NCBI RefSeq assembly: GCF_003634585.1
Contig: NZ_RBLG01000006.1
Span: 1-64,000, forward strand
Length of the DNA: 64,000 nt
Origin: Gillisia mitskevichiae
GTDB taxonomy: Bacteria; Bacteroidota; Bacteroidia; Flavobacteriales; Flavobacteriaceae
Reading direction: 5' to 3'
Shown: positions 81 through 24,980 of the stretch, in pieces
How positions within the stretch are numbered: position 1 is the first letter of the stretch
How the letters are laid out: each line of letters begins with the position of its first letter
Made by a program: the position numbers and the translations under genes
Notes under the pieces: model-generated
What the model was told of the DNA's origin: nothing
Databases searched by the model: none
What the model saw: only the letters and a program-made list of their open reading frames with translations

Positions 81-214
81 TGCCAACATCGGTTATGAGC
101 AAATAGCGGGCAGTCCGGTGAAAAGTGCTATTTTAGATACCAAGTAAAAACCAACTAAGCCGACAAGGACGCGTCCCTACTCCACGCTACTTGCCGTAAC
201 CAAGACCGTTGTAA
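81..214 (+). repeat. attC site 1
   Basis: The left arm GGTTATGAGCAAATAG pairs with the right arm CTACTTGCCGTAACC, with one T-G wobble. This is a rare arm variant in which both arms differ from the majority form together. R' is GTTGTAA. Confidence 0.9.
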
Positions 215-679
215 AGCATTGTTTTAGAGAGAAAAACTCAAAAAAAATATCATAAATCTGATTACATAAGATCAATATTTCGCAACTGTTGCGCTGACTT
301 TTTCAAGATTTTATTTAAGAACATAAACTTTTCAAACTTGAGTTTTATTGAGAAAGTTTAAAAGGATGAAAAGTATGAAAATTGGATGCTCTTAAAATCA
401 GATCGCGGATCCTTACTCGAACTTAAAAAACTAAAATTTGATGCATTCAACTTATTATTCTGACTTTTACTCAAGCGTGAAAAATGGATAAATTGAATTC
501 CTTTAGTTCTATAATTCTGACTTCCATTCAGACGTGAAAAATGACAAATTAATTAAGAACAAAAAAACTTAAAACTGAATATTACTCGAACTCAAAAAAT
601 AAAATCAAGATTCAGAAAAGAACAAAATGACTCAAAAAGGCTGGCAACTAAATAACATATTCCGAAGAAAAACAACGCT
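215..679 (+). other. Gene-less cassette body (cassette between attC 1 and 2)
   Basis: No convincing reading frame is present. The stretch resembles the cassette at 2294-2734 over most of its length. Both contain a TTTCGCAACTGTT(G/T)CGCTGA-like segment, copies of a TGACTTTTACTC...GTGAAAAATG repeat, and a shared 3' end (GATTCAGAAAAGAACAAAA, then ACATATTCCG). It may encode an RNA, be a decayed gene, or be passive DNA. The sequence does not decide between these. Confidence 0.6.
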
Positions 680-813
680 ATACAACATCGTTTAACAGCA
701 AATAGCGGGCATTCTGGTGAAAAGTATTATTTTAGACACCAAGTAAAAAACAACTAAGCCGAAAAGTTCGCGTCCCTACTCCACGCCACTTGCGTTAAAC
801 AAGACCGTTGTAG
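680..813 (+). repeat. attC site 2
   Basis: The left arm GTTTAACAGCAAATAG pairs perfectly with the right arm core TTGCGTTAAAC, leaving a single unpaired A. Both arms are changed together relative to the majority form, which is compensatory covariation. R'' TACAAC mirrors the cassette start GTTGTA at 208. Confidence 0.92.
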
Positions 814-905
814 CCAATAGCCTAGAAAACATGATTTAGGAAAGAACATATCTGACCATTAATTATAAATAAGAATTAAAAGGAAATAAACTAAAGAATC
901 GAAAA

Positions 906-1127
906 ATGGAAAAGAATTGGGTAATAGTAATAGCAGTATCGATTTTTTTAATAATCTCTTTAATTTATTGGAAGTTTACTCGTAGTACTATCAAAACAAA
1001 ATATGGTAAAATTTATAAAACATGGGGAGCACGAACTTTTTATTGGCAAGATGCCATATATATTATTACCGGAATTACATTTCTAATATTGGTTATTTTA
1101 AAATTGACAAATGTTTTGAATTTTTAG
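906..1127 (+). CDS. Small membrane protein, unknown function
   Basis: This is a 73-residue protein with two hydrophobic segments (about residues 5-22 and 50-70) and a basic loop between them (KFTRSTIKTKYGK). A small two-span inner-membrane protein is likely. I recognise no family. It starts 93 bp after attC 2 and is followed by some 260 bp of gene-less sequence before attC 3, so it fills only part of its cassette. Role unknown. The frame itself is supported by its position in the cassette and its membrane-type composition. Confidence 0.6.
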   Translation: MEKNWVIVIAVSIFLIISLIYWKFTRSTIKTKYGKIYKTWGARTFYWQDAIYIITGITFLILVILKLTNVLNF

Positions 1128-1398
1128 AAGCCTAAAAAACAAAGAGTGGCTGTTGCCAACCACAAATTTTAAAATGATGTTTTGATATTTTGACTTTGCG
1201 TTTTACTCGAACCTAAATGATTTGAGTTCTTATTCTGACTTTTACTCAGGATTGTTAGCTACAAAAAATAGTATGATTTAAAATGGAAATCACCGACATC
1301 ACTCAAGTGTGAAAAGTGATAAAATTAAAGAGGTTTAAAATAATATTTTTTAAAATCAGAACGCTAAAAAAAGTTCTTACTCGGATAAAAGCTACTGG
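1128..1398 (+). other. Non-coding tail of cassette with dispersed repeat
   Basis: No gene is seen. It holds copies of the TTCTGACTTTTACTC and GTGTGAAAAGTG elements found in the gene-less cassettes elsewhere in the array. Confidence 0.5.
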
Positions 1399-1532
1399 CT
1401 ACAACATCGGTTACCAGCAAATAGCGGGCATTCGGGTGAAAAGTGCTATTTTGGACATCAACTAACAAACAACAAAGCCGACAAGAAGCCGTCCCTACTC
1501 CACGCTACTTGCGTTAACCAAGACCGTTGCCA
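1399..1532 (+). repeat. attC site 3
   Basis: The left arm GGTTACCAGCAAATAG lies opposite the right arm CTACTTGCGTTAACC, with one mismatch. The cassette end GGCTACAAC is the exact reverse complement of that cassette's start GTTGTAGCC at 807. Confidence 0.92.
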
Positions 1533-1538
1533 AACATT

Positions 1539-2138
1539 TTGAAGAAAATTCTGCTCATATCGATAATCCTAATGAATTTAGCTTGTAATGAAAAAACAAG
1601 TGAAGTTCGATATTATCCAAATTTTGAAATTTCAAATAAAGACAAGATTCAAAAGATGATCTTGGATACTACTCAAATGAATTTCAAGAAAATCACAAAT
1701 TGGATTGGTAATAATCAGTATAATGGAATACTATCAATAATTGAATTTGAAGATAATAAAATAACTAAAAGAATAATTCCTTCTGTACGCGGAAATGGAC
1801 TGATTAAACAACGAAATATGCTGAGTATAACATCAGATTCTATTTTAATTGACAACGGATATCCTGTTTCGGAACTTAAGAGAATATTAAAAAGGCACTA
1901 TTTAAACAATAATAATATTCCATATTACTCGGAATCAGCTTATAAAGCTGCAATAGAAATAACAATTGACACAAGTAAATCCGGGGCAGATTTAAAAAAA
2001 TTATTGACAAAATTGACACGGGACTTTGATGAAGTGAAAAATGAAGTCGAAGATTCAATAAAATTGCGATTTTTATTTAGTTATTTGAGACAAACTCCAC
2101 CGCCACCACCTCCGCCAAAAAGCGAGGACGATTATTGA
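1539..2138 (+). CDS. Cassette lipoprotein with proline-rich tail
   Basis: Starting at TTG 1539, the product is about 199 residues and opens KKILLISIILMNLAC, a lipoprotein signal with the acylated Cys near residue 16. An upstream TTG at 1527 lies inside attC and is less likely. The C-terminal third (EITIDTSKSGADLKKLLTKL onward) matches the pattern of the cassette protein at 13717, including a final proline run (seven Pro here). The two are probably distant paralogues. Function unknown; the location is the cell envelope, anchored by lipid (inference). Confidence 0.7.
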   Translation: MKKILLISIILMNLACNEKTSEVRYYPNFEISNKDKIQKMILDTTQMNFKKITNWIGNNQYNGILSIIEFEDNKITKRIIPSVRGNGLIKQRNMLSITSDSILIDNGYPVSELKRILKRHYLNNNNIPYYSESAYKAAIEITIDTSKSGADLKKLLTKLTRDFDEVKNEVEDSIKLRFLFSYLRQTPPPPPPPKSEDDY

Positions 2139-2159
2139 GAAGTCGACAAACAAAACGTT

Positions 2160-2293
2160 AGGCAACATCGGTTAAGCTCAAATAGCGGGCATTCCAATGA
2201 AAAGATATATTTTAGACATCAAGTAACAAACAACAAAGCCGACAAGAAGCCGTCCCTACTCCACGCTACTTGCCTTAACCAAGACCGTTGCCA
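2160..2293 (+). repeat. attC site 4
   Basis: Majority type: GGTTAAGCTCAAATAG with CTACTTGCCTTAACC. R'' GGCAAC mirrors the cassette start GTTGCC at 1526. Confidence 0.92.
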
Positions 2294-2734
2294 AGCATTG
2301 CTCGGAAAAAAAATCAAAGAACATATTTGAAGTTTTTAATTGATAAAAACTCACTCTTTCGCAACTGTTTCGCTGATTATTTCAAGATTTTGGAATACAA
2401 TTAAAACTACTAAATTCTGATTAAGTCATCAGTATTCGGAAAGATGAAAAGTGTAAAAAAACAATCCTCTTCCGATCAGTACGCTGACTTTTACTCGGAC
2501 GGGAAAAAGTAAAATGAAAAATAGAAACTAAGAACAAATGATTTTAAAAGCACTGCGCTGACTTTCACTCGGATGTGAAAAATGACAATTTTGACTAAGA
2601 ACAAAAGAACATTTGTACTTTAGAATTTAAAAGCTGATTATCACTCGGACTCAAAAAACTGAAGATTCAGAAAAGAACAAAAAGGACAAAAAAGGCAGAC
2701 AGTAAAATAACATATTCCGTCGTATCGCCACGCT
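2294..2734 (+). other. Gene-less cassette body, homologue of the one at 215
   Basis: It has no reading frame of note. It shares with 215-679 the TTTCGCAACTGTTTCGCTGA region, the repeated CGCTGACTTTTACTCGGACG and CGCTGACTTTCACTCGGATG units, and the 3' end. In the second unit TTTCAC and GTGAAA could form a short hairpin. Shared structure across the whole length suggests a family of non-coding cassettes that spread as units. Confidence 0.6.
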
Positions 2735-2868
2735 AGGCAACAACGGTTAAGCGCAAATAGCTGGCATTTGAGTAAAAAGTGATATTTTAGACACCAAGTA
2801 AAAAACAACTAAGCCGACAAGAACGTGTCCCTACTCCACGCCACTTGCCTTAACCAAGACCGTTGTGA
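2735..2868 (+). repeat. attC site 5
   Basis: Majority arms, with AACAACGG instead of AACATCGG next to R''. R'' GGCAAC mirrors the cassette start GTTGCC at 2287. Confidence 0.9.
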
Positions 2869-2901
2869 GCAATTTCACCAATCAAGATTTAAAGAAATAA
2901 A

Positions 2902-3789
2902 ATGATTCGCAAACAAATATTCCTATTACTAATTCTGACATTGATATTTGTTTCGTGTAAAGAGCAAAGTAATACTCAAGAAGACCCAAAAGATAAATTA
3001 ACAATTTCTAATGAAAAAATTGATCGAAAAAAACTAGATGAAAAACTAGTTGAAACCAATAAAACTTGGGATTCATTAAGTAATCAAATGAGAAGTAAAG
3101 AATTGAATAAATTTCAAGAAGATTCTCTTCAAAGATTATTTAATGATAACAAGAAACAACAGGAAACAATTTTTAAAGATTTTATCCTGAAAAATCCAAA
3201 CTCTTTGGTATCAATTGAAACTTTGAATGGTTTTAAGTTTAGTTGGGGAAAAGATATAACTAAAAAACTTTTCAAATCTTTAAGCCCAGCAATAAAGTCA
3301 TCCGACAAGGGAGAAATTGTTCAAGAATACATTAAATATTATAGAAATCCCGAGATTTCAGATAAATACAGTGATTTTATATTGCCTAATTCTAAAGGGG
3401 ATACCATAAGGATTTCTAATAATTTAAATGATTATACCTTATTAGAATTTTGGGCTTCTTGGTGTTCTGGTTGCAGAAAAGAACATCCAGAATTGATTAA
3501 GGTTTTTGAAAAATATAAGGATAGAAATTTTACTGTAATAAGTATATCAAGCGATACAAATGACGAAAATTGGCTAAATGCAATTGAAAAGGATAATTTA
3601 CCTTGGATCAATTTAAGAGATCCAAATGGTCGAGAAAGTATCGTTCAATATCAATATGGCATTCACGTTATACCCACCAACTTTTTAATTGGACCAAATA
3701 AAGAAATTATTGCCAAGAATATTGAACCAAAAGAATTGGACAAATTATTAAAGGAGGAACTAAGTGAAACTGCTCACAACATCGGTTAA
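2902..3789 (+). CDS. TlpA-like thioredoxin-fold lipoprotein
   Basis: The product has 295 residues. A lipoprotein signal (LTLIFVSCKEQ, Cys at about 19) is followed by a mostly helical, charged region and a C-terminal thioredoxin fold with WASWCSGC (cysteines about 187 and 190) and the cis-Pro segment VIPTNFLIG. TlpA/ResA proteins reduce or exchange disulfides outside the inner membrane; the actual substrate here is unknown. The last codons read AHNIG-stop and lie inside attC 6, so the site supplies the stop codon. Similar proteins are at 9426 (also a cassette) and 35928 (outside the array). Confidence 0.85.
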   Translation: MIRKQIFLLLILTLIFVSCKEQSNTQEDPKDKLTISNEKIDRKKLDEKLVETNKTWDSLSNQMRSKELNKFQEDSLQRLFNDNKKQQETIFKDFILKNPNSLVSIETLNGFKFSWGKDITKKLFKSLSPAIKSSDKGEIVQEYIKYYRNPEISDKYSDFILPNSKGDTIRISNNLNDYTLLEFWASWCSGCRKEHPELIKVFEKYKDRNFTVISISSDTNDENWLNAIEKDNLPWINLRDPNGRESIVQYQYGIHVIPTNFLIGPNKEIIAKNIEPKELDKLLKEELSETAHNIG

Positions 3790-3905
3790 GCGCAAATAGC
3801 GGGCTTAGTCGAAAAAGTGTATTTTAGATACCTAGTAAAAAACAACAAAACCGACAAGGACGCGTCCCTACTCCACGCCACTTGCCTTAACCAAGACCGT
3901 TAGCC
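3774..3905 (+). repeat. attC site 6 (short-core subtype)
   Basis: Majority arms with the second core type, GGGCTTAGTCGAAAAAGTG followed by TATTTTAGATACC. The cassette end GCTCACAAC exactly mirrors its start GTTGTGAGC at 2862. Confidence 0.93.
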
Positions 3906-3935
3906 CAAATTATTAATGAAGAATTACGTTTTTAT

Positions 3936-5594
3936 ATGAACTGGATTTTAGGCTCTATTCTAATTTTGATTATGATTTACCTTGTTGGTATCCAATTAAA
4001 AAAACGCAGAAATAAAAATGTAAAAAAAACTGTAATAGAAAATTGGGGAAAACCTAAAAATGCAAAGTATTTCGATTTTGATTTAATTGAACAGTTTTTT
4101 AAAAATCATAAAACTCAAGAAGAAATATTGCAAACAATTTCTGACAATACCTGGGATGATTTAGATCTAAATGCAATTTTCAAGTTTTTGGATAGAACCA
4201 CTTCAAAAATAGGGCAGCAATTTCTTTACTATAAACTTAGAACGATAACAGATATTTCTGACTTAAGGAGATTTGGAAAACTGACCGAAACCCTCAAGTT
4301 AAATACATCATTAAGAATTAAAAGCCAGGTAGAACTATCAAAACTGTCCTCAAACAAAGCATATTACTTAGAAGAAATATTTCGCTCACAAAGTTTAGAA
4401 ACATTTGGAAATATCTGGCTATTTCGTCTACTATCAATAGCTGCAATTTCATCCATTATTTTAAGCTTTTTTGATCCAACTTGGTTTCTACTTTTAATCC
4501 CTATATTTTTCATTAATCTTGTTTTTCATTATAAAAACAAGTCTTCGATACAATATTATTTAAATGGTGTTGGTCAACTAGCGACGAGTTATAAAGTTGC
4601 TAAGAATTTAAGCTCGTCTGAAGAAATTAAATCTTTTTATCAAGACTTTAATTTCTTGAAAAACGTGAAATCTATCTTATCAAAAATTAGATTTATGGAG
4701 TGGGAGAAAAAACTGGATAATGAGTATGCTCTTTTAATTTGGTTCGTATCAGAAATCATAAAAATCACATTCAATTTAGAACCTATCCTTTTTTACAGTT
4801 TTCAGAAATCATTAGAAAATAAAAATGAGGATATTAAAAACCTCTTTCTCTTCATAGGTGAAATTGACTCTGCGATATCTTGTGCATCCATACAAGAGGG
4901 TGATTTAAAATGTTGCACGCCAAAATTTATAAGCAAGAAAGAAGTTTTTACAGAAGATATCTATCATCCGCTTATTGTAAATTGTATTCCTAATGATCTA
5001 AGCTTAGAGAATAAAAGTTTGCTTCTAACTGGATCCAATATGTCTGGTAAAACAACATTTATAAGAACTTTTAGTATTAATGCAATTTTAGGACAAACAT
5101 TAAATTTTTGTTTCGCTACAAAATTTGAAACTCCATTTTTCAAGGTTTATTCATCAATTAGAATTTCAGATAATATATTGAATAACACTAGTTATTATTT
5201 AGAAGAAGTGATTAGAATTAAAGAATTAATCGATGCTTCAAAACAAGAAGATTGCAGTCTATTTATATTAGATGAGCTTTTTAAGGGAACCAATACTGTT
5301 GAGAGAATCGCCGCGGGAAAATCGATATTATCATACTTGAATAAAAAGAACCACATTGTAATGGTTTCTACACACGATTTGGAGCTTACCGAATTATTAA
5401 AAAATGAAAAATTTGATTTATATCATTTTTCGGAAACTATAGAAAATGACAGACTAATTTTTGATTACAAGATTAAACAAGGAAAACCGAAAAGTGGTAA
5501 TGCTATCAAAATATTAGAGTTGTATAATTATCCGTTAGAAATTATTGAGAATTCAAAAAGTTTGGATAAAATAACTTTGGCTAACATCGGTTAA
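3936..5594 (+). CDS. Membrane-anchored MutS-like ATPase
   Basis: The product has 552 residues. One N-terminal membrane span (about 3-20) and a pair near 165-205 are followed by a C-terminal MutS domain V ATPase: Walker A GSNMSGKTTF (about 365-375), Walker B LFILDELFKGTN, and the switch-like MVSTHDLEL. The N-terminal mismatch-binding and connector domains of MutS are absent, so a role in classical mismatch repair is unlikely. Membrane-bound MutS-like proteins of this shape are common in Bacteroidetes but poorly understood. The end reads LANIG-stop, with the stop inside attC 7. It is the only gene of its cassette, and one of the largest cargo genes. Confidence 0.85.
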   Translation: MNWILGSILILIMIYLVGIQLKKRRNKNVKKTVIENWGKPKNAKYFDFDLIEQFFKNHKTQEEILQTISDNTWDDLDLNAIFKFLDRTTSKIGQQFLYYKLRTITDISDLRRFGKLTETLKLNTSLRIKSQVELSKLSSNKAYYLEEIFRSQSLETFGNIWLFRLLSIAAISSIILSFFDPTWFLLLIPIFFINLVFHYKNKSSIQYYLNGVGQLATSYKVAKNLSSSEEIKSFYQDFNFLKNVKSILSKIRFMEWEKKLDNEYALLIWFVSEIIKITFNLEPILFYSFQKSLENKNEDIKNLFLFIGEIDSAISCASIQEGDLKCCTPKFISKKEVFTEDIYHPLIVNCIPNDLSLENKSLLLTGSNMSGKTTFIRTFSINAILGQTLNFCFATKFETPFFKVYSSIRISDNILNNTSYYLEEVIRIKELIDASKQEDCSLFILDELFKGTNTVERIAAGKSILSYLNKKNHIVMVSTHDLELTELLKNEKFDLYHFSETIENDRLIFDYKIKQGKPKSGNAIKILELYNYPLEIIENSKSLDKITLANIG

Positions 5595-5712
5595 GCGCAA
5601 ATAGCGGGCATTCTGGTGAAAAGTGCTATTTTAGTGACCAAGTAAAAAAGAACAAAGCCGACAAGAACGTGTCCCTACTCCACGCTACTTGCCTTAACCA
5701 AGACCGTTGCCA
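5579..5712 (+). repeat. attC site 7
   Basis: Majority arms. R'' GGCTAAC mirrors the cassette start GTTAGCC at 3899. It overlaps the last codons of the MutS-like gene. Confidence 0.92.
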
Positions 5713-5725
5713 TTAATTTTTTGAA

Positions 5726-6181
5726 ATGAGAAAACTACTTTTATTGATTTTTATAATATCATTCTTCACAAATTGTGACAAAAGAAATACCGACAATTAT
5801 GAAAACGAATTTCATCTTTTAAAAAAAGAAAATGACAGTCTGAAAAATATCATATCTGAAATAGATAACAAATATGTATTTGACAGTATTTCATATAAAA
5901 ACAACTTTGACACAGATAATACTTACGGACTTAATTCCACGGTGAAAAGTAAAATGGTTATTGTAGCCTATGGTACCGAAACTCAATTCATAAAATATGA
6001 TAGTTTGGTAGCTGGAAAAAAAATTAATCCAGATACACTTGACCAGAAATATGGAAGCTATTATTTCTCAACTAAACTGGATAAAGAGAAAAAAATCATA
6101 CATGTTGAAATTGAAACAAATAATAAATACGGAAAAAATAGAACCGTAACTTTAAACGATATTATTAGAACAAAAAACTAA
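5726..6181 (+). CDS. Cassette lipoprotein with short coiled coil
   Basis: The product has 151 residues. The signal MRKLLLLIFIISFFTNC puts a lipidated Cys at about 17. A heptad-rich stretch (FHLLKKENDSLKNIISEI, about 30-47) looks like a short coiled coil, and a beta-rich C-terminal half follows. I do not recognise the family. It starts 18 bp after the cassette boundary, and its stop abuts attC 8, leaving almost no untranslated sequence. It probably sits in the envelope. Confidence 0.7.
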   Translation: MRKLLLLIFIISFFTNCDKRNTDNYENEFHLLKKENDSLKNIISEIDNKYVFDSISYKNNFDTDNTYGLNSTVKSKMVIVAYGTETQFIKYDSLVAGKKINPDTLDQKYGSYYFSTKLDKEKKIIHVEIETNNKYGKNRTVTLNDIIRTKN

Positions 6182-6313
6182 AGGCAACATCGGTTAAGCG
6201 CAAATAGCGGGCGTAGTCGAAAAAGTGTATTTTAGATACTTAGTAAAAAACAACAAAGCCGACAAGAAGCCGTCCCTACTCCACGCTACTTGCCTTAACC
6301 AAGACCGTTGGCA
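6182..6313 (+). repeat. attC site 8 (short-core subtype)
   Basis: Core GGGCGTAGTCGAAAAAGTG, majority arms. R'' GGCAAC mirrors the cassette start GTTGCC at 5706. Confidence 0.92.
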
Positions 6314-6373
6314 ACAATATTAAAAAAATCATGCCTTTTAACAGATAATTTAAGGTAATCTCAAGTTCACAAT

Positions 6374-6733
6374 ATGAATCTGAAAAATCAAAATAGAAAT
6401 GTTATTATAGGTTTTCTACTGATTGTATTAATATTTATTTTAATACAGTTTTATTACGAGAAAAGTAATAAAGCACAAAATAAAACAACGGTAGGTAAAG
6501 TTTTTAAACAAGTGGAGAAAATAGGAGTTACTCCAGGAACAGTGATCGATTACTATTTTTATGTTGACGGAAATAAAACAAAAGGAAACACTAAAATTTT
6601 TAAAGATTTTCGTTTACAAACTAAAAATAAATTTTTTACTGTTAAATACGAAAGCGATAATCCTAAGAACTCAAGCATTTTATTGAACCAACAAATCATA
6701 AATGAATCTTTGATTAGAAAGGCAGGATTTTAA
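6374..6733 (+). CDS. Small single-span membrane protein
   Basis: The product has 119 residues: one N-terminal membrane span (about 9-27, IIGFLLIVLIFILIQF) and then a small beta-rich domain (YYFYVDGNKTKGNTKIFKDF... FFTVKYESDNPKNSSIL). The pattern resembles DUF3592-like small domains, but I cannot confirm membership. It is likely membrane-anchored with the domain outside. It is followed by about 75 bp and a decayed attC. Confidence 0.6.
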   Translation: MNLKNQNRNVIIGFLLIVLIFILIQFYYEKSNKAQNKTTVGKVFKQVEKIGVTPGTVIDYYFYVDGNKTKGNTKIFKDFRLQTKNKFFTVKYESDNPKNSSILLNQQIINESLIRKAGF

Positions 6734-6809
6734 ATAATAAAAGGAAGGAAATCATTTTTTATTGAATTGATAACATTAAGAATAATATAAGTTTTAGAAT
6801 TTATACTGT

Positions 6810-6925
6810 TACCAACATCGGGTATTTCAGTGAAAAGTGATATTTTAGATACCAAGTAACCAACAATAAATCAGACAAAAAAGCATCCCTACTCACACTA
6901 ATTGCGTTAACCAATACCTTTGACA
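6810..6925 (+). repeat. attC site 9, degenerate
   Basis: It is shortened to 116 bp. The left arm has lost the GGTTAAGCGCAAATAG segment (AACATCGGGTATTTCAG). R' is TTTGACA instead of GTTGRnn. It can no longer fold fully and is probably inactive, unlike its neighbours. Confidence 0.8.
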
Positions 6926-6930
6926 ACAAT

Positions 6931-7311
6931 ATGAAAAAAATAGGCATAATCATATTATTGTTTTTTTAAATGCTAATTACAGCACAGGAAAAAGAATGTT
7001 TTGATATTAAAAACGGAAAATTTAAATATCTGGATTCTCAATCGAACGAATTTATAGTGAAAAGAATAGATTCGATCCAAGTCGACAGCTGTACAACTGT
7101 AAATTTCGTTTATCATAGCAAAATCCACTGGAAATCTGAATGTGAATATGAAATGACTGTTTTTAAAGTTAACGATTCTCTATACAACCAGATTCTAGGA
7201 AATGTTTTTGAATTTAAAATAATGAGTATCGAAAATAATAAGATAAAATTGAAAACAAAAACGGTCAATAAAAAACGAGAAATGGAATACATTATGAATA
7301 TTCTCGATTGA
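6931..7311 (+). pseudogene. Secreted-protein cassette gene with a stop in the signal peptide
   Basis: From ATG 6931 the frame reads MKKIGIIILLFF, then TAA at 6967, then continues in the same frame from ATG 6970 (MLITAQEKECFDIKNG...). Together these form a natural signal peptide ending in an AQ/E junction, so a nonsense change has split the gene. Internal initiation at 6970 would give a 113-residue protein without a proper signal. The mature part is unrecognised. The neighbouring attC 9 is decayed too, which fits a dying cassette. Confidence 0.65.
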
Positions 7312-7328
7312 GAAATAAAAAATACTGT

Positions 7329-17020: not shown

Positions 17021-18136
17021 ATGAGAAAAATTCGAGTATATATAATAATTTTTGCCTCTCTATTCCTTTCAATAAATGGGTTTTCACAAGATGTATCATT
17101 TCTTAATGCTGATGGATTCTTTTCAATCGGAACTCAATCTAATAGAACTGCTTCAATAAGCTTGTCAGATTTAGATCAGGATGGAGATTTAGACGCCCTT
17201 GTTGCGAATGGCAGACACTGGGCAGAACAGAACTACCTTTTTTATAATGATGGTAAAGGAGGCTTTAAAATGGCAATTCCAATAGGAAACATTCTTGACG
17301 CATCTTACGCTGTAAAAAGTGCGGATTTCAATAATGATGGATTTATGGACATTGCAGTTGCTAATGACAATATTGATAATAAACTATTTTTTGGTTCTTC
17401 AGATAATGACTTTGACAAAGGAATTTCTTTTGGATCCATATCACCTTCAAGAAATCTTGAAATAGCAGATATTGACAATGATGGAGATTTTGACCTTATA
17501 CTTTCAAATAGAAAAGCTGAAAACGAAATTTGTCTAAACGACGGAAAAGGAAATTTTGAGAAAATTATATCGTTTGGAAGTCAATCCGACCAGACAATTC
17601 AAACTAAAATAATAGACATAAATAAAGATGGTTTTTTAGACTTAATTACAGCAGAAAGACAAACTAAGAACAAAGTATATCTCAATGATGGAAAACAGAA
17701 TTTCTCAAAGAAAATAGAATTCGGTAACGAGGAAGATGAAACTCGTTCTATTGATGTTGGTGATTTCGATAAAGATGGATATTTGGATATTGTTACTGGA
17801 AATCTAGGCTCAAAAAATATTATTCATTTTGGCGATAAGGAAATGACATTTGATAGAACATTCGAATTTAAAGAAGATCGTATGACTTCATCTATAAAAG
17901 TTGCTGATCTAGACAAAGACGGAAACTTAGACATAGTAGAAGGAAATTCAGAAGAACGGAATTATGTTTTTATGGGCAGAGAGAATGGGAAATTTCAAGA
18001 AATCGGATTAAGGGAAGATTTAAATGATGATACATACAACATAGAAATTGGAGATTTGAACAGCGATGGACTTCTAGATATCATTGAATCAAACTCAGGA
18101 AGTTGGAATTTGTATTATAGAACCCAGAAAAAATAA
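17021..18136 (+). CDS. Secreted FG-GAP/VCBS seven-repeat propeller protein
   Basis: Starting at ATG 17021, the product is 371 residues; the frame upstream only reads attC 21. After a signal peptide (about 1-23, ending GFSQ) there are seven calcium-binding-type motifs of the form D-x-D-x-D-G-x-x-D: DLDQDGDLD, DFNNDGFMD, DIDNDGDFD, DINKDGFLD, DFDKDGYLD, DLDKDGNLD and DLNSDGLLD, each about 45 residues apart. Seven repeats fit a seven-bladed integrin-like propeller. A binding role at the cell surface is likely; the ligand is unknown. It begins 12 bp after the cassette boundary. Confidence 0.88.
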   Translation: MRKIRVYIIIFASLFLSINGFSQDVSFLNADGFFSIGTQSNRTASISLSDLDQDGDLDALVANGRHWAEQNYLFYNDGKGGFKMAIPIGNILDASYAVKSADFNNDGFMDIAVANDNIDNKLFFGSSDNDFDKGISFGSISPSRNLEIADIDNDGDFDLILSNRKAENEICLNDGKGNFEKIISFGSQSDQTIQTKIIDINKDGFLDLITAERQTKNKVYLNDGKQNFSKKIEFGNEEDETRSIDVGDFDKDGYLDIVTGNLGSKNIIHFGDKEMTFDRTFEFKEDRMTSSIKVADLDKDGNLDIVEGNSEERNYVFMGRENGKFQEIGLREDLNDDTYNIEIGDLNSDGLLDIIESNSGSWNLYYRTQKK

Positions 18137-18140
18137 CTGT

Positions 18141-18274
18141 GGGCAACATCGGTTAAGCGCAAATAGCGGGCATTCTGATGAAAAGTATTATTTTAGAGAC
18201 CAAGTATCAAACAACAAAGCCGACAAGAAGCCGTCCCTACTCCACGCTACTTGCCTTAACCAAGACCGTTAGCA
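18141..18274 (+). repeat. attC site 22
   Basis: Majority arms. The cassette end GGGCAAC mirrors GTTGCC at 17009 over six bases. Confidence 0.92.
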
Positions 18275-18280
18275 ATTATT

Positions 18281-18985
18281 ATGAAGAAACTTTATATTTT
18301 ATTCTTAATTTTTAATGTGACTAGTACATATTTATTTAGTCAAGAGAACTTAAAAATTCCACCTGGAACAATATTTTTGAAAGACAATTTGTTTATTGAT
18401 AAAGTTCCTGTAAATAATTTAATGTTTTTAGAATATTTGACTGCTAAGCATTTTATCAGAAAAAAAGGTTTCGAATCATTCGCAGACTTACATAACAGTA
18501 CGGATAAGAAATTTGACCGAGTAAGATTATTATATCCATCTTTTTTAAAAAATCTAAATAAGAAAGGAAGTTTACTAACTAGGAAAAATTACTTTGAAAA
18601 TTATAAATATAAATATTCTCCAGTTCTCAATGTGACAAAAAAACAAGCAATAGATTATTGTAATTGGAGAACAGAAATGGTCTTGTATTTATGGTCGAAT
18701 GAAAATGAAAACGTCAATTATAAAATTAATTATAGATTACCACAAGAGAGTGAAATGATTTTGGCTAAAGAATATTTCTCTAAAGGGAACAAGTTCAAAT
18801 TAATTGATGGTGAAAATCCTACCAAATTTAAAACTATGAATATAGAAAAGAATTTCGTCCTGTATAATATTTCAGAATTTACAATGTCAGAAATCGTTTT
18901 TGGAGAAAATTGGAAAAATATTACTCCGAATGAATTTCCTAATGATATTACAGGGTTTCGTTGTGTATGTGAAATTCAACCATAA
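18281..18985 (+). CDS. Secreted FGE/SUMF1-like domain protein
   Basis: The product has 234 residues with a signal peptide to about 20 (FSQ). The order PPGTIFLKDNLFIDKVPVNN (about 27-46), VTKKQAIDYCNWRTEM (about 122-137), YRLPQESE (about 153-160) and the end ITGFRCVC follow the sulfatase-modifying-factor fold: 'PGTF.. D..EVTN..Y', 'A..YC.W', 'YRLPTEAE', 'GFR'. In Bacteroidetes such domains often serve in gliding or secretion lipoproteins rather than as formylglycine enzymes. The oxidase cysteines are not obvious here, so catalysis is doubtful. Confidence 0.75.
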   Translation: MKKLYILFLIFNVTSTYLFSQENLKIPPGTIFLKDNLFIDKVPVNNLMFLEYLTAKHFIRKKGFESFADLHNSTDKKFDRVRLLYPSFLKNLNKKGSLLTRKNYFENYKYKYSPVLNVTKKQAIDYCNWRTEMVLYLWSNENENVNYKINYRLPQESEMILAKEYFSKGNKFKLIDGENPTKFKTMNIEKNFVLYNISEFTMSEIVFGENWKNITPNEFPNDITGFRCVCEIQP

Positions 18986-18989
18986 CAAT

Positions 18990-19123
18990 TGCTAACATCG
19001 GTTAAGCGCAAATAGCGGGCATTCTGGTGAAAAGTGCTATTTTAGACATCAAGTAAAAAACAACTAAGCCGACAAGAACGTGTCCCTACTCCACACTACT
19101 TGCCTCAACCAAGACCGTTGTGA
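18990..19123 (+). repeat. attC site 23
   Basis: Right arm CTACTTGCCTCAACC, one change. The cassette end AATTGCTAAC exactly mirrors its start GTTAGCAATT at 18268, ten bases. Confidence 0.93.
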
Positions 19124-19151
19124 GCAATTTGAAAAAATCAGAAGAACAAAA

Positions 19152-19820
19152 ATGAATCAAAATTTCAATTTTTTAATTTTACTAAGTTTTCTTTTCTATA
19201 ACAGTCCTGGAAATGCTCAAACCGAATCAACAGCTGGATTTATTCCGAATGGATATGTATTGCTTGAAGAGCATAGTGGAGATGTTAATAAGGATGGATT
19301 AGAAGATTGTATTTTGATTATCAAGAATACAAAAGAGGAAAATATAGTTGAAAATAGATTTGGAGATATAGTTGATCGTAATAGAAGAGGAATAATTGTG
19401 CTATTGAACACTGAAAATGGTTATGAACCAATTCTTAAGAATTTAGATTGCTTCTCCTCTGAAAATGAAGATGGCGGCGTTTATTATCCTCCAGAACTTT
19501 CAATTGAGATTCATACTAACATTTTAAAAATTCATTACGCACATGGCCGATATGGAAATTGGGAGTATATTTTTAGATATGGTAAATCTGACTATCGATT
19601 AATTGGTTATGAATCAAGTGAAAATCGTGGACCAATTGTGAATTACAAAACAAGTATTAATTTTCTAACAAAGAAAAAACAAGTTTTAGAAAATGAAAAC
19701 ATGAATTCACAAGATGAAGTGGGAATTTTCAAAGAAACTTGGGAGAAAATTAAAATTGAAAACTTGATAAAGTTGTCTGAAATACAAGATTTCGATAATA
19801 TTGATATGACTAAATATTAG
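19152..19820 (+). CDS. Secreted protein with one FG-GAP-like motif
   Basis: Starting at ATG 19152, the product is 222 residues. A signal peptide (to NAQ, about residue 23) is followed by GDVNKDGLEDCILII, a single Ca-binding FG-GAP-like motif, and a segment NRRGIIVLLNTENGYEPIL. Proteins of this kind are frequent and uncharacterised in Flavobacteria. It shares the motif type, but not the repeat number, with the protein at 17021. It is probably exported; role unknown. Confidence 0.7.
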   Translation: MNQNFNFLILLSFLFYNSPGNAQTESTAGFIPNGYVLLEEHSGDVNKDGLEDCILIIKNTKEENIVENRFGDIVDRNRRGIIVLLNTENGYEPILKNLDCFSSENEDGGVYYPPELSIEIHTNILKIHYAHGRYGNWEYIFRYGKSDYRLIGYESSENRGPIVNYKTSINFLTKKKQVLENENMNSQDEVGIFKETWEKIKIENLIKLSEIQDFDNIDMTKY

Positions 19821-19833
19821 TGTAACAAACAGC

Positions 19834-19965
19834 TCACAACATCGGTTAAGCGCAAATAGCGGGCTTAGTCGAAAAAGTGTATTTTAGATACCAAGTAAAA
19901 AACAACAAAGCCGACAAGAACGCGTCCCTACTCCACGCTACTTGCCTTAACCAAGACCGTTGGCT
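19834..19965 (+). repeat. attC site 24 (short-core subtype)
   Basis: Core GGGCTTAGTCGAAAAAGTG. The cassette end GCTCACAAC exactly mirrors its start GTTGTGAGC at 19117. Confidence 0.93.
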
Positions 19966-19988
19966 GTAATATTCACATAAATTCAAAA

Positions 19989-20555
19989 ATGTACAAGATC
20001 CTAATTCTCTTATTCCTTTTGACAAATATAAACTGTATTGCTCAAAACGATTATCATTTAAAAATGAAAGTGAGTAGCAATGAAACAGGTAATGAATATA
20101 TCTTGGACATTTATAGAAGTAGTAAAAATTCTAAAATCTATTTTTTAAAATATACAGGCGAACAAAAATATAATAAAGCTGATAAGGAAAGAATAGAAGA
20201 ATTATGGAATAAAAAAGATAGAAAAGCAGCTGAAAATAAAGAACTAAATAGTATCCACGAAAGATCAAAAATCTTTACAAAAGAAAGTTTTAATTATTCA
20301 GCGAAGGATTCAAGTATCAAAATTAGTGACTCCATCGTTCTATCAAAAGCAGATATCCTATCTGAAATTGAAAGGAATAAAAATCGAGTTGTGATTCATG
20401 GCATTCAGATTGAAGTAACAATAGAAACCAATGATGGAGTTGAATATTCTTATCATGTTCACGCTCCAGATAAAGATCATTATAAGTTATTTGAAAAATT
20501 TGTAGATGAGAGTTCTAAAGAATTTAAGGTATTTCAATATCACGATAAATATTAG
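19989..20555 (+). CDS. Secreted cassette protein, paralogue of 30360
   Basis: The product has 188 residues with a signal peptide to about 19 (NINCIAQ). It is clearly related to 30360-30914: both have YLKxKVS.. N, EYI.DI.RSS.N.KIYF, KISDSI..SK.DILSEIE.NKNRVV and Y.HAPDK.HYKLF. The protein at 11294 is a more distant relative. The leader TAATATTCAC before the gene is also shared with the 30360 cassette, so the whole unit was duplicated. Function unknown. Confidence 0.75.
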   Translation: MYKILILLFLLTNINCIAQNDYHLKMKVSSNETGNEYILDIYRSSKNSKIYFLKYTGEQKYNKADKERIEELWNKKDRKAAENKELNSIHERSKIFTKESFNYSAKDSSIKISDSIVLSKADILSEIERNKNRVVIHGIQIEVTIETNDGVEYSYHVHAPDKDHYKLFEKFVDESSKEFKVFQYHDKY

Positions 20556-20573
20556 ATTCGTGTATAATACTAC

Positions 20574-20704
20574 AGCCAACATCGGTTAAGCGCAAATAGC
20601 GGGCTTAGTCGAAAAAGTGTAATTTAGATACCAAGTAAAAACAACAAAGCCGACAAGAACGCGTCCCTACTCCACGCTACTTGCCTTAACCAAGACCGTT
20701 GCCT
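20574..20704 (+). repeat. attC site 25 (short-core subtype)
   Basis: Core GGGCTTAGTCGAAAAAGTG. The cassette end TACAGCCAAC exactly mirrors its start GTTGGCTGTA at 19959, ten bases. Confidence 0.93.
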
Positions 20705-21233: not shown

Positions 21234-21367
21234 AGGCAACATCGTTTAACAGCAAATAGCGGGCATTCTGGTGAAAAGTGTTATTTTAGACACCAAGTAA
21301 TAAACAACAAAGCCGACAAGAACGCGTCCCTACTCCACGCCACTTGCGTTAAACAAGACCGTTATGC
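21234..21367 (+). repeat. attC site 26
   Basis: Variant arms GTTTAACAGCAAATAG and CCACTTGCGTTAAAC, the same covarying pair as site 2. The cassette end TATAGGCAAC exactly mirrors its start GTTGCCTATA at 20698. Confidence 0.94.
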
Positions 21368-21426
21368 AGCAGTTAAAAAACCCGAACAAAGAATCATATT
21401 TGAAGACAAATTTGTAAATTTGAATT

Positions 21427-21660
21427 ATGGACGTAAATATTCAAAATAAAAAAATAGAATTAATTCAGTGGTTATCTACTCTGAATGATATGTCAATTAT
21501 TGAAAAAATAATTAAACTTCGAGAACGAGAAAAATCTGATTGGTGGAATGAAATATCTGTTTCTGAGAAAAAATCTTTAGAAAAAGGAATCAAGGATGCT
21601 GACGCTGGAAACTTGAATTCTCACTCTGATGTAAAAAAGATTTATGAAAAGTGGCTATAA
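21427..21660 (+). CDS. Antitoxin of the second ParE/RelE module
   Basis: The product has 77 residues with the same layout as the antitoxin at 7535 (helical N-terminus, then ISVSEKKSLEKGIKDADAGNLNSHSDVKKIYEKWL). It overlaps the toxin start by 17 bases. A TAAATTTG -7-like box at 21415-21422 lies five bases before the ATG, so a nearly leaderless transcript from the module's own promoter is possible (inference). Confidence 0.8.
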   Translation: MDVNIQNKKIELIQWLSTLNDMSIIEKIIKLREREKSDWWNEISVSEKKSLEKGIKDADAGNLNSHSDVKKIYEKWL

Positions 21661-21946
21661 AATTTTGTGGACTGACCATGCTATTTCAGAATTAAAAGAC
21701 ACACTTGAATATTTAGAGGAAAATTGGACAGAAAGGGAACTGTCAAACTTTTCAGAAGAACTAGATCATACAATTGAACTTATCTCAAAAAATCCTGAAC
21801 TTTTCCAAGTTTCAAAAAAGAAAAAAGGAGTAAGAAGAGCAGTTGTCGCACGATATAATAATCTCTTTTATCGGACTAAAAATGACACTGTTGAAATACT
21901 ATCTCTATTTTCCAACCGACAAGATCCAGATAAAATTAAGATCTAA
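21644..21946 (+). CDS. ParE/RelE-family toxin (second module)
   Basis: The product has 100 residues: YKILWTDHAISELKDTLEYLEENW (helical hairpin), VRRAVVARYNNLFYRTKND (strands) and the end ILSLFSNRQDPDKI. It has the same fold and length as the toxin at 7756, but the sequence is clearly diverged, so the two modules need not cross-talk. The start overlaps the antitoxin in another frame, typical of coupled translation. A molecular target cannot be assigned. Confidence 0.85.
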   Translation: MKSGYKILWTDHAISELKDTLEYLEENWTERELSNFSEELDHTIELISKNPELFQVSKKKKGVRRAVVARYNNLFYRTKNDTVEILSLFSNRQDPDKIKI

Positions 21947-21954
21947 AAACCGCA

Positions 21955-22086
21955 GCATAACATCGGTTAAGCGCAAATAGCGGGCTTAGTCGAAAAAGTG
22001 TATATTAGACACCAAGTAAAAAACAACTAAGCCGACAAGTTTGCGTCCCTACTCCACGCTACTTGCCTTAACCAAGACCGTTGCCA
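21955..22086 (+). repeat. attC site 27 (short-core subtype)
   Basis: Core GGGCTTAGTCGAAAAAGTG. The cassette end GCATAAC mirrors its start GTTATGC at 21361. Confidence 0.92.
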
Positions 22087-22115
22087 TTCATTGTACTCAC
22101 TCAAACTCTAGAAAA

Positions 22116-22316
22116 ATGATAAAAAGAAATTTAGCTTCAATATTTATAATAGCCTCTTGTATTTGGAGTATCCTAACTGTTGAATTTTCAAATATTTCGG
22201 AACCAAAAGAATATTGGGATTTGATTATTTCATCGCTCATAATTATAGCGTCATTAATATTAATTTTTAGTACGGAATATAAAATCAAGAAAAATAAAGA
22301 ATATAAATCTGAATAA
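22116..22316 (+). CDS. Small two-span membrane protein
   Basis: Starting at ATG 22116, the product is 66 residues; the longer frame only translates attC. Two hydrophobic segments (about 8-22 and 38-54) are followed by a lysine-rich tail (KIKKNKEYK). The layout matches the 58-residue protein at 31092. It is followed by about 200 bp without a gene, in which GCAAGTTTGCG-like words recur. Function unknown. Confidence 0.55.
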   Translation: MIKRNLASIFIIASCIWSILTVEFSNISEPKEYWDLIISSLIIIASLILIFSTEYKIKKNKEYKSE

Positions 22317-22525
22317 AATAACAAAGGAATATTAGCAAGTTTGCGCAATCGAAATCTGAATTAAAAACGTGGAATCTCACTAAATCATTATTCAGCAAGT
22401 TGCGGAATTGCTTACTCAATCGGAATTGAAAAAGTTTGCGGAATAACGCGCTGAACGAACTCAATGATAAGCTGAATTTAAAAATGGGAATTTGATTGAA
22501 AATTTGAACTAAAAAAACAACGAAA

Positions 22526-22659
22526 TGGCAACATCGGTTAAGTGCAAATAGCGGGCATTCTGGTGAAAAGTGCTATTTTAGACATTAAGTAAAAAACAAC
22601 AAAACCGACAAGAACGCGTCCCTACTCCACGCTACTTGCCTTAACCAAGACCGTTACCT
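22526..22659 (+). repeat. attC site 28
   Basis: Left arm GGTTAAGTGCAAATAG, majority right arm. The cassette end AATGGCAAC exactly mirrors its start GTTGCCATT at 22080. Confidence 0.93.
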
Positions 22660-22689
22660 TGCATTTGAACTCACTCAAAAACAGTAGAA

Positions 22690-23253
22690 TTGAATAACAG
22701 AATTAAAATTCCTTTAAGTAAAAAGAAAATCATTATACTTCTCGTGTCTGCAATTGTTTTTATAACTGGAGGAATTTGGATGATAATTGAGCCTGGAAAT
22801 GCAAGACATTTTTTTAATCCTATAAATGGAAGATTTTTCTATCTCAACCCAGAATCTATCATGCTATTTGGAATTATTGGAATTTTGTTTTTCGGAGCAG
22901 CAGTAATTTATGGGGTTAAAAAACTATTCTACAAAAAAGTTGGACTTATTATCGACTCAAACGGAATAACTGACAACTCCAACGCATCAAGTATTGGACT
23001 AATTGAATGGAATGACATTTCCGATATAAGAGTAATGCAAGTAATGTCGACCAAATTCTTGTTAATCGATATCTTAAACCCTGAAAAATATATCGGAAAA
23101 GCTAAAAACGGAGTACAAGCTAAACTTATGAAAGCAAATATGAGTATTTACCAAACACCACTTTCGATTACATCAAACACTCTGAAATATGATTTTGGAG
23201 AACTTGAGAAATTGATACGAAATGAATTTAAACGGAATAAAAACGCAAGGTAA
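22690..23253 (+). CDS. STM3941-like membrane protein
   Basis: The product has 187 residues from a TTG start; no nearby ATG fits the N-terminus. Two membrane spans (about 12-30 and 56-75) are followed by a soluble domain with SIGLIEWNDISDIRVMQVMSTKFLLIDILNPEKYI, a pattern I associate with the STM3941 family, small membrane proteins of unknown function. The stop (AGG TAA) lies in the first bases of attC 29, another case where the site supplies the stop codon. Confidence 0.7.
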   Translation: MNNRIKIPLSKKKIIILLVSAIVFITGGIWMIIEPGNARHFFNPINGRFFYLNPESIMLFGIIGILFFGAAVIYGVKKLFYKKVGLIIDSNGITDNSNASSIGLIEWNDISDIRVMQVMSTKFLLIDILNPEKYIGKAKNGVQAKLMKANMSIYQTPLSITSNTLKYDFGELEKLIRNEFKRNKNAR

Positions 23254-23379
23254 CATCGGTTAAGCGCAAATAGCGGGCTTAGTCGAAAAAGTGTATTTTA
23301 GATACCAAGTTAAAAACAACAAAGCCGACAAGAACGCGTCCCTACTCCACGCTACTTGCCTTAACCAAGACCGTTGTAG
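23248..23379 (+). repeat. attC site 29 (short-core subtype)
   Basis: Core GGGCTTAGTCGAAAAAGTG. The cassette end GCAAGGTAAC exactly mirrors its start GTTACCTTGC at 22653, ten bases. Confidence 0.94.
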
Positions 23380-23404
23380 GCAATTATTAAGGAAAATTTT
23401 AGGA

Positions 23405-24106
23405 ATGAATGAAACTTTCATAGCATCTTTAATATTGTTGATATATTTTTCACCTGTATTTTACCAACTAATTCTCGCAATAAAGGAAAGTAAGGGAGGA
23501 AATCGAATACCTCTAAAGAAATTTATAAAGTTCACGAAATTTAGTTTATTGATTCTGATCCCAATTTTAATATCATTTGCTGTCGTAAGCCATACCAACT
23601 ACTTAAATTATGAAAAGCCTATCACTTTTGATAATTACAAAAAAATTACATTTGAAAACTTTAGGGGTCTTGAGCTTTTTAAAAAGTCATTGTATGGTAA
23701 TAAAAGGTTTGCTTATGTTGTAACGACAATCGACAGTGATATAAGTGAAAATAGCATAACTATAAGATCCTTATTTCATCCTTCTCGTTCATTCGTTTAC
23801 AATCAAAATACAAACAGTAAGGAGTTATTAAGTCATGAAAAATATCATATTAAAATCACTGAATTATACACTCGAAAAGCAAAAGAAAAAATTTCAAAAC
23901 TCAACTCTTATTCTAAAGATAAAATTGAAGAAATTTTAATAGAAGTGAAAAAGAATGAACAAGTTTTTCAGGAGGAATATGATTATAATACATTTCATAG
24001 CTATGTTTTAAGTGAACAAAAGAGATATGAGAAAGATGTTGATAGTTTATTAAATTTACTTACCGATTTTAAAAACCCACAAATTATAATTAATGACAAA
24101 GATTAG
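23405..24106 (+). CDS. Membrane protein, first gene of a two-gene cassette
   Basis: Starting at ATG 23405, the product is 233 residues with two membrane spans (about 4-25 and 42-62), then a soluble part with strands and long charged helices (KEKISKLNSYSKDKIEEILIEVKKNEQVFQEEYDY). I recognise no family. Its end overlaps the next gene by 14 bases, so the two are translated together and probably work together. The upstream frame only reads attC 29. Confidence 0.65.
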   Translation: MNETFIASLILLIYFSPVFYQLILAIKESKGGNRIPLKKFIKFTKFSLLILIPILISFAVVSHTNYLNYEKPITFDNYKKITFENFRGLELFKKSLYGNKRFAYVVTTIDSDISENSITIRSLFHPSRSFVYNQNTNSKELLSHEKYHIKITELYTRKAKEKISKLNSYSKDKIEEILIEVKKNEQVFQEEYDYNTFHSYVLSEQKRYEKDVDSLLNLLTDFKNPQIIINDKD

Positions 24107-24845
24107 ATTTATTTTATTGGCACTCGCATGCATAACACTTACAAATTGCAATACAACAGAACATGAATTTCCTTTAGATAAAAGATTTTGGGATACAAAT
24201 GATTATGATACCGCAGTTTTAGAATTAAGATATGGTTATAAAGAAGATGAAAAACTGCCCACTTTTGCAGACCCTGAAAAAAGACTAGTTGTAGAAAAAC
24301 TGACAGATGAGCAAAATTTCAACATTGTTCTAAATGATAATGAACTTGGTATAGAACACCGAAACGATGTGGCAACTGAGTTTTTTAAACATTGGCAATC
24401 CATGACCCGTATTTATGTAGCAAAAGATAGAAAGGATCAATATCTATATGATAAAGAATTGCTAGCTGTTTGGCATTTCGGATTAGAATTACAATTAAAA
24501 TATTTTAAATTAGGAAACGATCAAATTCGCAATATGGCTGACGATCCCAATTCAGTTATTGTACAGAGTAATATTGATTCCAATGTTAAAACAATGATTA
24601 ATAATTATCTAATCTATTTAGATTTGATAAATGAAGAAGATGCATTTACAGAAGAAGGTGAAAATGACTTAGCAAGTGGAATTGATCAATACTTTACTCA
24701 AATGATTGAACTTTATCCAGATGCTGATTATAACAGCATGAAAAGGAAGGCTGAATTGATGATTAATAAAAGTCATTCTGATAATATAAAGTCATCTCTT
24801 AACAAATTGATCCAACTGATAGAATCAAAAACTATAGAACAATAA
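24093..24845 (+). CDS. Lipoprotein, second gene of the cassette
   Basis: The product has 250 residues with a lipoprotein signal (ILLALACITLTNC, Cys at about 19) and an all-helical mature part (LLAVWHFGLELQLKYFKLGNDQ..., MKRKAELMINKSHSDNIKSSLNKLI). No known family is recognised. Overlap with the membrane-protein gene upstream suggests an envelope pair. It is one of only a few two-gene cassettes in this array; the others are the HEPN-like pair and the toxin-antitoxin pairs. Confidence 0.65.
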   Translation: MTKIRFILLALACITLTNCNTTEHEFPLDKRFWDTNDYDTAVLELRYGYKEDEKLPTFADPEKRLVVEKLTDEQNFNIVLNDNELGIEHRNDVATEFFKHWQSMTRIYVAKDRKDQYLYDKELLAVWHFGLELQLKYFKLGNDQIRNMADDPNSVIVQSNIDSNVKTMINNYLIYLDLINEEDAFTEEGENDLASGIDQYFTQMIELYPDADYNSMKRKAELMINKSHSDNIKSSLNKLIQLIESKTIEQ

Positions 24846-24849
24846 CTGC

Positions 24850-24980
24850 CTACAACATCGGTTAAGTGCAAATAGCGGGCTTTGTCGAAAAAGTGTATTT
24901 TAGATCTCAAGTAAAAATCAACTAAGCCGACAAGTTTGCGACCCTATTCCCACTACTTGCCTTAACCAAGACCGTTGTGA
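24850..24980 (+). repeat. attC site 30 (short-core subtype)
   Basis: Core GGGCTTTGTCGAAAAAGTG, with a worn right half (CGACCCTATTCCCACTACTTG). The cassette end TGCCTACAAC exactly mirrors its start GTTGTAGGCA at 23373. Confidence 0.9.

Follow-up and report, generated by a model that had tools for sequence, protein, structure and literature searches.

An integron-like cassette array in Gillisia mitskevichiae and its candidate recombinase outside the IntI family

The genome of Gillisia mitskevichiae (3.59 Mb in 18 contigs, 99.97% complete) carries, within the first 64 kb of the 85,742-bp contig C6 (this 64-kb stretch is referred to below as the window), a long run of short and mostly co-oriented genes separated from one another by a repeat of about 126 nt. 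The run extends from position 85 to 24976 and is best explained as the distal portion of a large, integron-like array in the chromosome. Across the genome, the pattern CATCGGTTANNNNCAAATAGCGGGC occurs 117 times when up to three mismatches are allowed, with the listed places on contigs C6 to C12 plus one on C2. When 5' and 3' motifs are paired, attC-type arrays comprise 116 sites on seven contigs, which we infer to be one array broken by assembly, and 109 cassettes with a median size of 724 bp lie between these sites. A lone site-like sequence (G000:C2:809198) sits on a contig without an array. All 109 cassettes start with GTT and 108 end in AAC. The attC core consensus, RYYYAAC...GTTRRRY, includes an RRRY after GTT that just five of the 109 starts possess, and the sites therefore depart from this consensus. 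An Rfam scan of the window gave no match, and a tRNA search of it found none.

The initial annotation of the window had claimed that each cassette begins with the reverse complement of its own end, and we compared each start, read from its GTT, with the reverse complement of its own end, read to its AAC, against mismatched pairs and permutations; the GTT and AAC contribute 3 nt of match for free in every pair. Over the 28 cassettes of the window (208-24973), the mean exact match was 8.21 nt for own pairs versus 3.90 nt for 756 mismatched pairs, and none of 100,000 permutations reached the own mean. Matches of at least 7 nt were found in 20 of 28 own pairs compared to 26 of 756 mismatched pairs, so that the shuffled comparison proposed with the claim bears it out; the eight quoted examples of starts and ends are all in place, each matching over 10 nt. 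For the 109 cassettes of the whole genome, the own mean was 8.17 nt versus 4.00 nt (11,772 mismatched pairs; 0 of 10,000 permutations as high), and after removal of one of each near-duplicate pair, matches of at least 9 nt remained in 64 of 98 own pairs versus 79 of 9,506 mismatched pairs. The two boxes of one and the same site, which come from neighbouring cassettes, match over 4.13 nt, hardly above the random 4.00 nt, and a good stem therefore exists only when the start of a cassette is joined to its own end, as would happen in a circle. Seven of the 109 cassettes are exceptions that match over 4 nt or less: three (C8:6690, C8:23810 and C11:3021) contain an extra half-site that the motif search left unpaired, two belong to the decayed tail of the window past 24973 (24974-26892 and 27012-28057), and two (C8:843 and C8:19148) are without explanation.

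Resolved by position, own ends pair in 73-96% of the 109 cassettes at positions 4-10 and match in none at position 11, where 106 starts have A, 102 ends have C and 99 cassettes have both. Pairing then resumes at positions 12 to 15 (91, 92, 81 and 66% of own pairs versus 68, 38, 43 and 40% of mismatched pairs). The fixed A/C is a mismatch on the top strand and a T.G pair on the bottom strand. The annotated match of up to 10 bp is thus real, but pairing goes on after the break at position 11. An R stem perhaps longer than the usual 7-bp R box had also been suggested; AAC and GTT are conserved in attC sites and own-end pairing over 9-11 nt is reported for most known cassettes (PMC2727003), which makes pairing beyond 7 nt ordinary, and what is unusual here is the fixed A/C and the pairing to about position 15. 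The further statement that such ends are expected only if they were joined in a folded circle, as in attC recombination, was right in that the data are best read as cassette units bounded at the GTT edge, with an attC-like hairpin arising in a circular intermediate, but its "only if" is too strong because complementarity shows that the two ends are used together or were made together and not, by itself, that recombination acts on a hairpin.

Modelled as circles, own junctions have mean predicted energies of -26.0 kcal/mol on the bottom strand versus -22.6 kcal/mol on the top strand. The bottom strand is the more stable in 106 of 109, and also in 106 of 109 its energy is below that of the junction that actually stands in the array. 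A consensus of the 82 junctions (of 109) with a 120-nt interior gave -19.2 (bottom) and -9.6 (top); in its predicted fold, the R stem is followed by 3 unpaired nt and then the L stem, and one extrahelical G lies on the R''-L'' arm; for known attC sites, an unpaired central spacer and extrahelical bases including a G in L'' are described (PMC2727003). Among junctions selected for A/C at 34 other loci, the bottom strand was lower in 110 of 110. For the site alone, with neither flanks nor A/C selection, it was lower in 99 of 116 cases in the genome itself and in 114 of 124 at the 34 loci, with control stretches at 63 of 124.

On contig C7, sites lie on the minus strand at C7:270-3847, and just upstream of them, in the same direction as the cassettes, is a gene for a 381-aa tyrosine recombinase (TR; C7:4368-5513) whose closest relatives among the matches listed are from Gillisia, a genus of Flavobacteriaceae (95% and less). 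Downstream of the TR stop codon is an attI-like site, ATATAACNN^GTT. The first cassette, GTTGTGCACAATAC..., starts 30 nt from the first base of the stop codon, is preceded by GATATAACAC and matches its own end at the first 10 positions. Defining the attI-like motif as ATATA[AG]CNN before GT[TA], at most 260 nt from the TR stop, we found it in 69 of 80 TR loci (the best of the related loci among the matches listed), where it is followed by differing first cassettes. Since 19 of these have less than 600 nt downstream, 50 were testable, and the first cassette matched its own end at 13 or more of 14 positions in 32 of them versus 8 of 2,450 crossed pairs, and at 12 or more in 42 versus 65 of 2,450; all 32 loci with the closer match have A/C at position 11. 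A scan that made no use of the motif gave 132 chained cassette pairs downstream of TR, none upstream and 3 in reversed sequence (unchained matches: 249, 43 and 86, respectively).

Pfam recognizes SAM-like and catalytic domains in TR. Its score against the XerA-type NCBIfam model NF040815 is 220.5 bits, barely over the cut-off of 220, and its score against the IntI model TIGR02249 is 201 bits, in two pieces and under the cut-off of 265. The IntI insertion is missing: TR has 24 residues where IntI4 (2a3v) has 67, a stretch that we take to be the IntI additional domain. Residues R217, K242, H306, R309, H332 and Y341, presumably the catalytic ones, are invariant in 54 TR relatives. Phylogenetic trees, the first of which carried long-branch warnings, place the IntI rows in one clade (100/100) with no TR inside and the Xer rows apart from TR and IntI (98/93 in the first tree, 100/96 in the second). 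A structural model of TR (predicted local distance difference test score, pLDDT, 82.9; predicted template modelling score 0.59; residues 334-347 below pLDDT 50) matches XerA and IntI structures, with XerA (4a8e, 5hxy) closest among solved structures by both sequence and fold. To judge from its missing insertion, sub-cut-off score and place outside the IntI clade, TR is not an IntI. We describe it as a recombinase related to Xer and IntI that lacks the IntI insertion, the region of the I2 helix, and that has an array-associated N-terminal alpha/beta domain; this extra domain, the cassette array and the attI-like site set it apart from Xer recombinases, with which it shares the absence of the insertion. 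Two further recombinases in the genome, of 306 and 295 aa, are Xer-like by our own naming, and no match over the IntI cut-off was found in the whole genome. Modelled alone, the N-terminal domain of TR reached a pLDDT of 90.5 and had no significant fold match in Foldseek, where YciH (E 0.17) and the HARP domain of SMARCAL1 (4o66, E 0.44) ranked best. Profile hints whose position in the protein is unspecified came from PF07443 in one of the 54 TRs (E 0.012) and DUF5710 in three (best 0.019). These likenesses to HARP and DUF5710 are weak, other unrelated families score equally in the profile search, and kinship with HARP is a lead, not a finding.

The XerA-like score of TR, and its lack of the I2 region that is held to be the step toward single-strand recombination (PMC7790495), would suit a scheme in which the enzyme acts like Xer at dif, cutting core sites in ordinary duplex DNA, with the hairpin incidental. 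Duplex recombination, however, requires neither complementary cassette ends beyond the core nor a fold that favours one strand, and we regard this scheme as improbable.

Of 299 genomes of the family, 116 have TR relatives at E <= 1e-60, most of them a single one, and a profile of 54 TRs at E <= 1e-70 matched in 99 of 345 genomes of the phylum; not all of these relatives have arrays. We picked 40 loci from the phylum matches and ran a profile of the N-terminal domain on their open reading frames (ORFs). Where the domain was present and at least 1.5 kb lay downstream, 21 of 23 loci had at least one cassette pair with the position-11 A/C, compared to none of ten loci without the domain, which amount to eight distinct proteins because L259 and L263, and L260 and L265, are near-identical. 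The sole A/C pair of L246 lies away from TR. Loci with less than 1.5 kb downstream (L237, L239, L261, L262 and L264) were set aside, as were L241, with a broken ORF and one pair, and L274, considered below; reversed sequences of 20 of the loci gave a background of 3 A/C pairs. TR, the attI-like site and A/C-marked cassettes recur in other Bacteroidota. In the second tree, domain-bearing TRs fall in several lineages with domain-less ones between them, a scatter that does not support a single origin of the domain.

True IntI genes exceed the cut-off in 46 of 148 sampled Bacteroidota genomes. Given this and the integron-like anatomy of the array, one might suppose an ordinary sedentary integron in which a true IntI acts from elsewhere or was lost, leaving a cluster of attC sites lacking an integrase (CALIN), with TR a bystander. 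We consider this very unlikely: the 14 other same-family genomes of the 148-genome sample, like that of G. mitskevichiae, gave no IntI match over the cut-off, and an attI-like site and first cassette stand directly behind TR in many genera. Moreover, the surroundings of 20 true IntI genes hold almost no A/C-marked cassettes: 662 kb (both strands counted) yielded 6 A/C pairs, 1 of them chained; the same scan gave 27 pairs, 24 chained, in the first 25 kb of the window and none in its last 32 kb. A search for exact matches of 7 nt between ends around true IntI genes was uninformative, the reversed control being higher in 15 of 20 loci, and the strict A/C criterion was used instead. In one genome (G005), a true IntI gene and two chained A/C-type cassettes (L279, 2959-5384) are separated by about 4 kb, and the two systems may meet there.

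In 31 stretches taken from seven further genomes in the genus, we found 64 near-full-length matches to cassettes of the G. mitskevichiae genome, many of them from one gene-less family. The clearest copies have 99.3% identity over 715 bp (G162), 98.9% over 468 bp (G152), 98.5% over 752 bp (G154), 94.9% over 641 bp (G162) and 91.1% over 1,003 bp (G153). Neighbours of these copies have 0.45-0.53 identity, the level of unrelated sequence. Two copies, that of C6:1526 in G162 and that of C8:11500 in G152, follow an upstream site of a different type, and their likeness sets in at the (C)GTT edge; the C8:11500 copy keeps its downstream site (0.93), with the upstream one at 0.62.

Cassettes that behave as units with boundaries near GTT, an attI-like site, the linkage to TR and the sharing of cassettes between genomes lead us to think it likely, from sequence evidence, that this is an integron-like system run by a non-IntI recombinase, and the genome apparently holds more than 100 cassettes that look mobile and whose ends mirror each other as in integrons. 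Several observations weigh against this interpretation. Departures from pairing at positions 4-10 comprise 11 of the bottom-strand type and 14 of the top-strand type; wobble pairs at these positions, tried as a sign of strand selection, showed no excess, which leaves position 11 as the sole source of strand bias in the R stem. The attI-like motif is absent from 11 of 80 TR loci, L242 and L272 have a TR with the domain and no cassette pair, and L274 has an array, its ORF as found covering just the end of the domain. The C9:6346 copy (99.3%) shows the opposite pattern to C8:11500, with its upstream site at 0.97 and its downstream site at 0.73 and broken-looking; C8:25489, with site identities of 0.82 and 0.91, shows little tie to either. 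Within the genome, the downstream sites of 14 near-duplicate pairs are 0.82-0.96 identical against a background of 0.878 (standard deviation 0.044). Near-duplicates, examined as proof that a site travels with its cassette, did not bear this out within the genome and were split between genomes.

These mixed ties between cassettes and sites mean that homogenisation or homologous recombination could also shuffle the array. With sites about 88% alike, near-duplicates that show no visible retention of their own sites and a C9:6346 copy that keeps the upstream one, it is conceivable that homologous recombination between the repeats of about 126 nt shuffles the array and that the complementary ends are unused relics of cassette making. 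We find this quite unlikely, since the (C)GTT edge is where likeness between genomes sets in, even for cassettes behind an upstream site of a different kind (L199 for C6:1526; L189), first cassettes join attI, a sequence other than the repeat, and the pairing and position 11 are maintained far outside the genus.

Under the integron-like interpretation, TR would excise each cassette as a circle, which brings its two ends together and turns the site into a well-paired hairpin, and would insert it by recombining the folded bottom strand of that site, at the GTT edge, with attI or a further site, the cut falling at G^TT or beside it; the N-terminal domain may help to recognize the folded site. The bottom-strand hairpin is predicted, and its recombination by TR is what we infer. 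Among the hallmarks of integrons, we find an attC-type imperfect inverted repeat after cassettes (116 paired sites), self-complementary cassette ends in the circular form, a predicted bottom-strand fold with an unpaired spacer and an extrahelical base in L'' and, from sequence alone, an attI-like site next to the recombinase gene with cassettes joined there. An IntI-family integrase with the IntI-specific additional domain is absent, and so, in most starts, is the RRRY of the attC core consensus. The system would thus work like an integron, yet it is not one by the IntI criterion.

Table 1. Features of the array in the window, with the length over which each cassette's own ends pair and the site that follows.
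Feature	Position	Strand	Own-end pairing	Following site
attC-like site (AAC...GTT) closing a cassette cut by the contig start	85..210	+		
Cassette, no ORF of 60 aa	208..686	+	6 nt, resumes past position 7	684-809
Cassette	807..1405	+	10 nt	1403-1528
Cassette; 94.9% copy elsewhere in the genus (L199)	1526..2166	+	6 nt, resumes past position 7	2164-2289
Cassette, no ORF of 60 aa; near-copy C12:2478	2287..2741	+	6 nt	2739-2864
Cassette, thioredoxin-like protein	2862..3780	+	10 nt	3778-3901
Cassette, MutS domain V protein	3899..5585	+	7 nt	5583-5708
Cassette	5706..6188	+	6 nt	6186-6309
Probably two cassettes, decayed site between (about 6814-6921)	6307..7335	+	10 nt (outer ends)	7333-7458
Cassette, ParE-type toxin gene	7456..8077	+	7 nt	8075-8200
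Cassette	8198..9255	+	10 nt	9253-9378
Cassette, redoxin/DUF4369 protein	9376..10574	+	6 nt	10572-10697
Cassette	10695..11138	+	9 nt	11136-11261
Cassette	11259..11869	+	10 nt	11867-11992
Cassette, HNH endonuclease-domain protein	11990..12953	+	9 nt	12951-13076
Cassette	13074..13574	+	6 nt	13572-13696
Cassette	13694..14367	+	5 nt	14365-14490
Cassette, minus-strand 126-aa ORF; tandem near-copy of 15163..15747	14488..15042	+	9 nt	15040-15165
Cassette, near-copy of 14488..15042	15163..15747	+	9 nt	15745-15870
Cassette	15868..16889	+	8 nt	16887-17011
Cassette, FG-GAP repeat protein	17009..18147	+	6 nt	18145-18270
Cassette, FGE-sulfatase-domain protein	18268..18996	+	10 nt	18994-19119
Cassette	19117..19840	+	9 nt	19838-19961
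Cassette	19959..20580	+	10 nt	20578-20700
Cassette, no ORF of 60 aa	20698..21240	+	10 nt	21238-21363
Cassette, ParE-type toxin gene; near-copies C11:10108 and elsewhere in the genus (L205)	21361..21961	+	7 nt	21959-22082
Cassette	22080..22532	+	9 nt	22530-22655
Cassette	22653..23254	+	10 nt	23252-23375
Cassette, two ORFs	23373..24856	+	10 nt	24854-24976 (last intact)
Decayed distal end; sites 26890-27014 and 28055-28179, half-site ending 28938, 5' half at 29858	24974..29980	+	just 3 and 4 nt	

The decay of the distal end (Table 1) is, as expected, what the oldest cassettes would show. Just past the last intact site is a transposase-like gene with an integrase core domain (rve, PF00665; 25205-25906), and a Peptidase M64-domain gene (27072-28007) is flanked by decayed sites. 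The cassettes at 208-686 and 2287-2741, neither of which has an ORF of 60 aa, contain internal repeats (CTGACTTTTACTC...) and belong to a family of related cassettes of about 445-480 bp (also C7:18363, C8:31104, C11:4570, C11:8438 and C12:2478). This family supplies most of the cross-genome matches within the genus and is possibly regulatory. For the tandem near-identical cassettes at 14488-15747, the first minus-strand 126-aa ORF has no Pfam match.

As in sedentary chromosomal integrons such as the Vibrio superintegron, the array is long and mostly co-oriented, some of its cassettes lack genes and some carry ParE-type toxin genes; shared as well are AAC...GTT sites, own-end complementarity, a predicted fold that is more stable on the bottom strand, with an unpaired spacer and a single extrahelical G on the R''-L'' arm (attC features: PMC2727003) and an attI-like site adjoining the recombinase gene. 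It differs from them in its non-IntI recombinase, in the rarity of GTTRRRY, in the fixed A/C at position 11 with pairing to about position 15, and in the attI-like site being 3' of the recombinase gene. In Treponema integrons, too, the recombinase gene is transcribed toward attI in the cassette direction (PMC3607928), but there the integrase is a true IntI, whereas here no match reaches the IntI cut-off. The non-IntI recombinase, the attI-like site 3' of its gene and the recurrence across Bacteroidota are not evident from the window. IntI-type integrons are known in Bacteroidota (PMC9668308, PMC8618304, PMC2426708), but the one complete integron that IntegronFinder 2.0 reports for Bacteroidetes proper is in Salinibacter (PMC9024848); tools that demand an IntI profile would presumably miss TR-type loci. 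A literature search of titles and abstracts, with bioRxiv and most subscription papers outside its reach, found no description of a TR-type cassette system.

The I2 helix is presented as an innovation toward single-strand recombination in integron integrases, and its causality is described as lacking direct proof because deletion of I2 abolishes IntI1 function (PMC7790495). We tentatively raise the possibility that TR represents a second, IntI-independent integron lineage across Bacteroidota, where folded single-stranded sites are handled not through the I2 helix but by a Xer-like recombinase that has an N-terminal domain of its own, perhaps HARP-like, whether as an independent invention or as a relic from before I2. 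The occurrence in nature of mobile cassettes, attC-like hairpins and an attI-like site without the I2 insertion would make the role of I2 testable and, if true, would add a large gene-exchange system to Bacteroidota.

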